Source of the DNA: Pagrus major
Lineage: Eukaryota; Chordata; Actinopteri; Spariformes; Sparidae
DNA length: 64,000 bases
Direction of reading: 5' to 3'
NCBI RefSeq assembly: GCF_040436345.1
Contig: NC_133227.1
Span: forward strand, 23,310,671 to 23,374,670
Each line of letters begins with the position of its first letter. Position 1 is the first letter of the stretch. Below, piece by piece: positions 4,129 through 7,100 of this stretch. Under the pieces are notes generated by a model, which saw only the letters and a list, made by a program, of their open reading frames with translations, ran no database searches and was not told the DNA's origin. A program made the translations under genes and the position numbers.

Positions 4129-7100
4129 ATGGCGTCCATCAGAGGACGAACAGGAAGTCTGAACGTGCTGCACTTCCTGTTGGGTGAGTATACCAATGTT
4201 AAAACATCCATCAGACTTTACAGGTAGACTGACACCTGTCTGTCTGTCTGCAGGTGTGTTCCTGGTTTGTCCTGAAGGGGCTGTCTGTCTGGAGCTGATG
4301 CCTTCTTCCTCTGAAGTTCTGCTTAACTCAAACGCCAACTTCACTGTGGTCAGTAAACACCTGTCTGTCTTCGCCCGTACCTTGTTGTGTGTCCACACAT
4401 ACCTGTCTGACGCCACAGTTACCTGTCCCGCCTGTCATTGCAGGTGTGTTCAAGTACCTGTCTGTCTCCTCAGGTGTGTTCAGGAAGGAGACAGGTACCT
4501 GTCTGTCTCCCCAGGTGTGTTTGCGATTGGATCAGGTACCTTTCTGTCTCTTCAGGTGTGATTAATGGAGTCAGGTACCTGTCTGTCTCTGCAGAGTTGT
4601 TCAGGTAACTGTCTGCCTCCTCAGGTGTATTCGTGAAGGAGACAGGTACCTGTCTGTCTCCTCAGGTGTGTTTGTAGTTGGCTTAGGCACCTGTCTGTCT
4701 TCCAGGTGTGTTTGGGATGGAGTCAGGTATTTGTCTTTCTCTTCTGGTGCTTTCAGGGTTGGTCAGGTACCTGTTTGTCTCTGCAGGTATATTTTGGGTT
4801 GGTTCAGGTACCTGTCTGTCTCTTCACGTGGGTTCAGGGTTGGATCATGTACCTGTCTATCTTCTCAGGTGTGTTTAGGGTTGGATTAGGTACCGCTCTG
4901 TTTCTTCAGGTGTGTTCGGGATTGGATCATTACCTGTCTGTCCTCTCAGGTATGTTTGGGGTTGCTTCAGGCACCTGTTTGTCCCCTTGGGTGTTTCTGA
5001 TGCAGTCAGGGACCTACCTTTCTCCTCAGGCGTGTTTGGGGTTATTTCAGGTACCCGTCAATCTCTGCAGGTGTGTTCAAGTTCCTGTTTGTCTCCTCAG
5101 GTATGTTCGGGAGTCAGGTACCTATCTGTATCCTCAAAATGTGTTTGGGGTTGGTTCAGGTACTTGTCTGTCCCTGTAGGTTTGTTCAGGTACCCATCTG
5201 TTTCTCCAGGTGTTCAGGGTTGGTCTGGTGTGTTCGGGATTAGATCATGTATCTGTCTATCTTCTCAGGTGTGTTCAGGGTTGGATCAAGTATCTGTCTG
5301 TCTTCTCAGGTCTACTTGGGGTTGGTTCAGGTACCTGTCTGTGTCTTCTGGTGTATTCAGGTTTGGATCAGGTACCTTTTTGTCCTCTCAGGTGTGTCTG
5401 GGTTCGGTTTAGGTACCTGTCTGTCTCAAATGGGGTTGGCTCAGGTACTTGTTTGTCTAAATGGTTTATCCAGGTATCTGTCTCTACAGGTGTGTTGAGG
5501 TACCTGTCTGTCTCCTCAGGTGTGTTCAGGTACCTGTCTGTCTCTTCAGGTGTGTTCAGGTGCCTGTCTGTCTCCTCAGGTGTTCAGGGTTGGTTCAGGT
5601 ACCTGTCTGTCTCTCCAGGTGTGTTCAGGCTGGAGTCAGGTGACATGGCGGTTACCTCAGGACATGTTGGTGGACGGGGTTGTTGTGGAGAATCAGGGAT
5701 CCAGCAGCATCCTGCAGCTCTTTAACGCCACCTGGAAGAATTCTGGGAGATACACGTGTGAAGAGGCCTCGTCCTATCAGAGCAGAGAGATCGACATCTT
5801 CATACCTGGTCAAGGTGATGATGAAATTTCTCATATATTGATCATGTCTTGTGAGACCTTTACCTCCTGATGTTTCAATCCTACTTGTCCCCCCTTTCAG
5901 GTCCAGAGGAATGGTTTGTCCCACTGGGTCCAGGTGTGGTCATGAAGGAGGCAGAGGAAGATACCATCCCCTGTGTGGTGTCCGACCCACAGCTCAACGT
6001 CTCGCTGTACGAACGTCCCAGCAGGACACCTGTTACGGGGACAAAGTACGAGCCAGGCCACGGCTTCACGGGTCGTCTGAACGACACATCATACGTGTGC
6101 TTGGCCACCCGTGGAGACGAGGAGAAAGAGTCACAGGTGTACTATGTCTTCAGCATCATCGGTGAGGGAATTATCTATAATAGTAGTTGCTCTTCAAGTC
6201 TGACTTCGTTTCACCTAACTAAAGGGTCTGAATCATCACTTCACATGTAAAATGTTTGTTCCAGGAAAGAACGTTTGGTACTACTTTAAGGCCTTTTGGA
6301 CCATTTTCAGAGAAATTATGTTGGAAAGTTGCCATTTGGTTATTTACCTTTACAAAATGTCCTGCTCAAATGTAATCGGGTTTGGCAATCTTCCTGTGCA
6401 GGAATACAGAAGTGCTAAAGGATGTGAAAGAAGACTCATTTTGGGCGAGGCAACAACATACAAAATATCACTGAAAATGAACACTTAATATATATTCAGG
6501 AAATATTCAGGCACCTGGCAAAAAAATGCCTTCTTGTGACTTTAAAATACCCCTGATATTTACCCCTTATTTACACTAACTTTATGCATATAGATACTGC
6601 TTCAGTGGTTCCTCATTTTTATCTCAACCACACACCTGCCACATGTAAGCTGCTATGATCATATTGGGGAACAGTGGTAGCCAAACCCTTATCCTAGCCC
6701 AGGACTGGCAGCCCTTGCCCCTCCCCTATTACCACCACTGAGGGGCCCTTGAGCAAGGCCCTTTGAATTAAGATTACAAAGATTTAGACCAGATTAAATT
6801 TGGTGAGTTTAACTATGAGCTTCGTTAGTTTGGATTAAACCAAATAGACTACACTATTGTCTTACATCAGACCTGTCTGTCTCTCCACCTGTCTGTCTCT
6901 CAGTTCCAAAGGTGATGGAGGTGGATCTGACGGTGTCCAGCAGCGTGTTGAAGCAGGGGGAGGCTCTGATTGTAAACTGCACTGTCAAAGACACTGAGAT
7001 GGTCTTCTTCTCCTGGGACTTCCCTCGCAAAGAGGTACCTGTCTCACTCTTCATCCGCCTGTCTGTCTGAACTGTGATGTCATCAAACTGTAATGCCTCA

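Follow-up and report, generated by a model that had tools for sequence, protein, structure and literature searches.

Tandem copies of a 3' splice junction in intron 2 of Pagrus major pdgfrb

How does a splice donor find its partner when the intron between them is filled with copies of that partner, and how could such an intron have come about? Intron 2 of pdgfrb in Pagrus major raises both questions. We analyzed it in a window of 64,000 nucleotides (nt) (contig NC_133227.1 of assembly GCF_040436345.1, positions 23,310,671 to 23,374,670 of the forward strand; all positions below are those of the window), in which pdgfrb stands in tandem with a csf1r-like gene, called csf1r hereafter. An earlier reading of the same letters, made without database searches (the sequence-only reading), had described intron 2 as largely a repeat of its own acceptor and exon start. 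The present analysis agrees with this description, finding 31 intronic units followed by the true junction as the 32nd copy. We consider it likely that intron 2 carries a mirage-type minisatellite, derived from a tandemly duplicated 3' splice junction.

The array and the split of Ig domain D1

Each unit joins a polypyrimidine tract and an AG to the start of exon 3, with the consensus GTACCTGTCTGTCTCCTCAG/GTGTGTTCAGGGTTGGTTCAG (the slash marks the junction here and below). Delimited through their common GTACCTGTCTGTCTC core, 13 units measure 41 nt and 7 measure 30 nt, the other 11 ranging from 25 to 59 nt; the sequence-only reading had recognized the array but had put it at about 28 units. Tandem Repeats Finder reports a 41-nt period array at 4450-5427, with 30-nt copies reaching 5629, as well as higher-order periods of 82 and 109 nt. 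Pairwise identity between units averages 0.746 (range, 0.48 to 1.0). At the junction position, AG is kept in 24 of the 31 units, in line with the two dozen decoy acceptors expected earlier, while AG/GT is found in 22 and the exact AGGTGTGTT in 12. CAGGT occurs 39 times in 4454-5598, compared with 5.5 times in dinucleotide shuffles.

The exon-like half of the unit resembles the start of exon 3. In a fixed register, the exon side of the consensus matches exon 3 at 17 of 21 positions, and a tail profile built on the 41-nt units (13 in number) gives exon 3 a higher score than any of 124,956 other positions (both strands, excluding 4200-5700). A unit had previously been defined as an acceptor plus GTGTGTTCAGG. 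This holds in general, most units diverging from exon 3 after 7 to 11 nt, but the exon-like part is longer in some of them, u01 and u07 matching 18 of the first 21 nt. The match in register and the 31 units support the tandem duplication of a 3' splice junction that had been proposed. Conservation is uniform across the columns of the unit (tract, 0.85; TCAG, 0.88; exon-like start, 0.82; tail, 0.84), a pattern that fits neutral copies. Selection on the decoy AGs was considered and is unsupported, the AG columns being conserved like the rest of the unit.

Intron 2 (donor ACTGTG/gtcagt at 4349; acceptor ctctccag/GTGTGTTCAGG, ending at 5618) splits Ig domain D1. The donor, the acceptor and a corrected gene model of 25 coding exons and 1,000 amino acids (aa) with no stop bear out the boundaries first assigned to it. 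The start of exon 3 aligns to TCSGSAPVVW of PDGFRB, and the D1 protein aligns with human PDGFRB without a gap through the 4348/5619 join. The coding sequence of D1 amounts to 95 + 196 = 291 nt in pdgfrb (phase 1 to 0 to 1), versus 276 nt in csf1r (phase 1 to 1). The sizes and the common outer phases given by the sequence-only reading were thus right, and so was its statement that D1 is split in pdgfrb and unsplit in csf1r, in view of the gene models and of the gap-free alignment at the junction. In KIT, D1 is a single exon.

The site of intron 2 has no counterpart in D1 of csf1r, the one paralogue compared. Intron 2 is not unique as an extra intron: pdgfrb also has extra introns in D3 and D5 relative to csf1r (introns 6 and 11 in Table 1), in a comparison that covers one gene pair in one window. 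The joined exon flanks of introns 2, 6, and 11 all read G^GT.

Table 1. Positions of the array, of the surrounding parts of pdgfrb, and of the csf1r exon used for comparison
Feature	Position	Strand	Remarks
pdgfrb exon 2	4254..4348	+	95 nt, phase 1 to 0, first part of D1; from gene model, open reading frame, and PDGFRB D1 homology
pdgfrb intron 2	4349..5618	+	1,270 nt
Intron 2 head to first-unit acceptor	4349..4443	+	First unit, u00, at 4424-4453
Minisatellite	4424..5598	+	31 intronic units, acceptor plus exon-3-like start
Stretch from acceptor 5520 to exon 3	5520..5618	+	In-frame open acceptors 5520, 5550, 5580
Last unit copy, the authentic exon 3 3' splice junction	5599..5639	+	32nd copy; acceptor score above 98% of 42 other real acceptors
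pdgfrb exon 3	5619..5814	+	196 nt, phase 0 to 1, remainder of D1
Intron 1 acceptor and exon 2 start	4234..4274	+	Possible diverged relative of the unit; 16/21 exon-side match
pdgfrb intron 6	7235..7422	+	Second pdgfrb-only intron (D3); 82 + 75 nt versus 163 nt in csf1r; no csf1r counterpart
pdgfrb intron 11	8428..8532	+	Third pdgfrb-only intron (D5); 100 + 109 nt versus 170 nt in csf1r
pdgfrb	4129-13411	+	In tandem with the csf1r-like gene, same strand
csf1r D1 exon	24947..25222	+	Single exon, 276 nt, phase 1 to 1; in-window comparison

Decoy sites, reading frames, and the choice of acceptor

Splice sites were scored with matrices built from the 42 other acceptors and the 41 other donors of pdgfrb and csf1r. 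Absolute scores are generous because the matrices come from the same window, where acceptors often have CTGTCTGT tracts; this bias is common to all the introns compared. In intron 2, 38 acceptor decoys reach or exceed the median of real sites (29.9/kb, versus 1.39/kb on the rest of the + strand), as do 35 donor-like sites (27.6/kb, versus 3.27/kb elsewhere). The other 41 modelled introns have at most one acceptor decoy each, and 37 of the 42 introns have none. Among the 24 units that keep the AG, 22 reach the median of real acceptors. Acceptor strength does not rise significantly from unit to unit toward exon 3 (Spearman 0.23, p 0.28). Many units have the juxtaposed acceptor/donor form CAG/GT, which would be a recursive or sequential splicing site if it were used stepwise in RNA.

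The reading frame sets apart the units closest to exon 3. Among all the AGs of intron 2, only those at 5520, 5550, and 5580 join exon 3 in frame and free of stops, adding 33, 23, and 13 aa, respectively. From each of the 22 upstream acceptors checked, the frame runs into a stop within or before exon 3. When the unit order is shuffled, 0.59% of 20,000 permutations end in at least three in-frame open units, in a test that was picked after the pattern had been seen.

At the other end of the array, the head of the intron (4349-4443) would in itself be a well-formed intron of 95 nt, its CTGAC branch-point motif lying 34 nt upstream of the AG of u00. This normal short-intron form suggests that the ancestral acceptor was the one at u00 and that the array grew downstream of it. 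TTCAG, a candidate branch-point sequence, lies 22 or 32 to 33 nt upstream of 6 of the 10 acceptors examined, and 5619 has one at 22 nt. The branch-point motif YTNAY is found 4 times in the 1,145 nt of the array (3.5/kb, compared with 30/kb for other introns), where dinucleotide shuffles give 15.2, a scarcity that may simply follow from the sequence of the unit.

On the anatomy, decoy strengths, and frames observed above, we propose a model of how the array could have arisen, been tolerated, and been spliced: (i) a segment over the 3' junction (pyrimidine tract, AG, and ~10 to 21 nt of exon start) would have been tandemly duplicated many times, (ii) by slippage or unequal exchange, the copies diverging later, and (iii) most productive splicing would run from 4348 to 5619, which is among the strongest acceptors and the sole one to give an insertion-free D1. 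The three nearest units would be usable without a break of the frame, and use of units farther upstream would stop translation prematurely, with the message then degraded. The array would be tolerated upstream of exon 3 because its copies leave with the intron, provided that exon 2 joins a productive acceptor.

Several observations weigh against this model. Four of the 24 unit acceptors outscore 5619. No YTNAY lies 15 to 100 nt upstream of 5619, a lack shared with 5 of the 41 other introns, and just 18 nt separate this acceptor from the preceding AG, the second-shortest distance of 42; because of this missing motif and close AG, simple scores leave the choice of 5619 over its neighbours unexplained. 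Identity between units is flat with lag (0.73 to 0.75 for lags 1 to 8), so that the lag measure does not see a higher-order duplication. Moreover, we infer the use of 5619 from the reading frame and from homology.

Source of the copied junction and competing histories

Which junction was copied? The duplication of a 3' junction stands, but the source first given for it, the junction of exon 3 itself, is incomplete, as the unit also resembles the junction of exon 2. The first 21 nt of exon 2 match the unit consensus at 16 positions, next to the 17 of exon 3, with at most 11 for the other 41 of 43 junctions, and a match of 16 is reached by only 2 of 124,956 other 21-mers. When junctions, together with their flanking intron sequence, are aligned locally to the unit, exon 3 scores 90, exon 2 scores 45 (second of 42), and the next one scores 34. 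Because the start of exon 2 stands this far above unrelated junctions, the intron 1 acceptor is a possible source, and the copied junction may be that of intron 1.

This opens a conceivable, although rather unlikely, history, in which the intron 1/exon 2 acceptor would have been copied into an ancestral single D1 exon, where the copy would have given a new intron its acceptor and later multiplied. The copy would have entered at a chance or shared GTGTGTTC, and a single duplication history would account for exon 2, the array, and exon 3. Along with the rank of exon 2 among the junctions, the first unit and the exon 2 junction have TGCAGGTGTGTTC in common, with a score reached by 1 in 1,000 shuffled heads, and the published mirage model predicts mirage-derived repeats in new introns (PMC3087553). 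However, by the tail profile, exon 2 is equalled or surpassed at 15 of the 124,956 positions, which makes this evidence moderate given ~40 junctions, and ACCTGTCTGTCT tracts abound on the + strand of the window, with 21 copies. The starts of exons 2 and 3 match each other at only 12 of 21 positions, and 24 of the 31 units are nearer the exon 3 junction (mean of 0.763, versus 0.725 for exon 2). A likeness by position between the head of intron 2 and the tail of intron 1 (16/22) was left unused, as another intron start also reaches 16/22.

A larger claim, and in our view a doubtful one, would be the birth of a vertebrate intron by the mirage route as a whole, with the intron 1 acceptor copied into the D1 exon and the nearest in-frame copies still giving D1 isoforms that depend on the number of units. 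The simple AG/GT tandem-duplication model of intron birth predicts that the head of an intron copies the start of the downstream exon. This classic route was rejected for intron 2, whose head matches the exon start at 6 of 14 positions (mean, 4.1 over 42 introns). The head of intron 11 gives the best match of the 42 introns, at 9 of 14.

We regard it as improbable that the array was selected as a regulator of splicing, either to produce D1 isoforms with 13, 23, or 33 additional residues or to act as a brake through sequential or recursive splicing at AG/GT units. The post hoc run of three open in-frame units before exon 3, the density of donor-like sites, and the 39 occurrences of CAGGT would fit such a role, but the acceptor columns are no better conserved than the remainder of the unit and acceptor scores follow no significant gradient. 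Insertions would also put cysteines beside the B-strand cysteine of D1.

We would all but dismiss the reading of the array as an unspecific satellite of ACCTGTCTGTCT type, or as clustered CAGGTG/CAGGTA boxes (binding sites of ZEB/Snail type), with an accidental likeness to a splice junction. In its favour, 10 copies of ACCTGTCTGTCT lie in the window outside intron 2 and the CAGGTACCTG palindrome occurs 8 times, always within intron 2. Against it, the exon-like half follows exon 3 in exact register (17/21), which would not be expected of a pyrimidine satellite; ACCTGTCTGTCT is on the + strand, that of the receptor genes, in 21 of 21 cases, with no copy on the - strand, as acceptor tracts would be; and any repeat of a CAG/GT junction makes such boxes.

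Known mirages, other junction copies, and neighbouring genes

In amphioxus, tandem repeats of exon-intron boundaries, termed mirages, have been proposed as a route to new introns and are known from Adh3, the globins BflGb6 and BflGb9, troponin C, and PGBD5 (PMC3087553; PMC3902484). Judged from its sequence, the duplicated junction of pdgfrb is a putative member of this known class and a vertebrate match for the amphioxus mirages. Its units include both sides of a boundary (17/21 in register), and many of them keep the AG (24/31) or AGGT (22/31). As in BflGb6, the 3' end of an intron and the 5' part of an exon are repeated, and the 10- to 72-bp units of Adh3 bracket the unit sizes of pdgfrb. 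BflGb6, in contrast, has 3 to 6 units of 150 to 160 bp with 81 to 100% identity, compared with the 31 units of 25 to 59 nt and mean identity of 0.746 in the fish. Unlike the amphioxus mirages, the array lies in an intron that is itself extra relative to a paralogue. Undisturbed splicing and length instability are described in the amphioxus reports, whereas the pdgfrb array is known from the DNA of one assembled haplotype alone. The units of the human IFI6 minisatellite also carry usable splice sites, but these are donors, compared with acceptors in pdgfrb (PMC4526556; PMC2572611).

Several extra introns in one gene are also known from serpin and G protein-coupled receptor (GPCR) genes of genome-compacted ray-finned fishes (PMC2746811; PMC3151243). 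These gains were compared over several species and host-junction repeats are not mentioned in the available parts of the sources, whereas pdgfrb offers one gene pair. Intron gain has also been described through tandem duplication of short proto-splice-site (AG/GT) segments (PMC2891723), and a human survey reported new introns from tandem repeats at exon-intron boundaries (PMC2812944). With narrow search terms, the pdgfrb array was not found in the titles and first lines of abstracts of the open-licence literature; the 1996 Fugu PDGFR-CSF1R paper may describe the intron.

The array bears on the birth of introns and on the selection of true splice sites. If intron 2 was indeed gained in this lineage, it would show in a vertebrate the kind of new intron that the amphioxus mirage model foresees, one full of repeats derived from a boundary. 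Whether gained or not, the intron is a natural test of 3' splice-site choice, with 38 decoys standing between a single donor and the acceptor by which D1 is restored, and a polymorphism of unit number, if any, would let the rule of this choice be read from RNA.

Copies of splice junctions are also present in other introns of the window. In intron 12 of pdgfrb (8630-8730), the donor junction recurs as an exact 24/24 copy at 8707, 77 nt farther downstream, and intron 14 (9218-9302) begins with three 28-bp copies that include the donor TAG/GTAATACTTTGAGACAGCGTAGTAC (own-junction match, 20/24). An own-junction copy of 20/24 accompanies the donor at 62427 of an slc22-like gene, for which SLC22A6 gave the best structure matches, and two csf1r donors have copies of 19/24. 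The slc22-like intron (62427-63089) contains a 20-nt minisatellite, CACTACCAG/GTAACCTGTCT, that resembles its own donor junction, GCACCAACAG/GTAACCTGTCT, and has 12 donor-like sites that score no lower than the median donor of the receptor genes. A special enrichment of junction duplications was rejected: a copy of at least 19/24 in the same intron was found for 6 of 88 junction windows, versus 8 of 64 and 5 of 44 intronic windows and 0 of 88 exonic ones. Because own-junction copies occur in other introns and are no commoner than wholly intronic duplications, and because the decoy AGs show no greater conservation than other parts of the unit, pdgfrb intron 2 looks like an extreme case of ordinary duplication, a process tolerated at splice junctions.

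Concerning the genes themselves, human PDGFRB is the best match for the first domains of pdgfrb (E 1.7e-22), and the protein contains the Pfam PDGFR Ig-like domain 4 and a tyrosine kinase. Domains D1 to D3 of the csf1r-like gene match the KIT and CSF1R structures about equally (108.7 versus 106.4 bits), and the label csf1r therefore leans on gene order; PDGFR and CSF1R are reportedly linked in pufferfish and human, going by the title of a cited paper. The D4 exon of csf1r (26538-26925) is 388 nt long, versus 184 nt in pdgfrb, and has an Asn-rich, repetitive-looking insertion. Elsewhere in the window, a 42-bp repeat forms 3 copies with an open frame at 47615-47742 (DRLQGDxLQEEAQG-like), and nearly 10 copies of a 21-bp repeat lie at 48258-48466, open in two frames of the + strand and one of the - strand.
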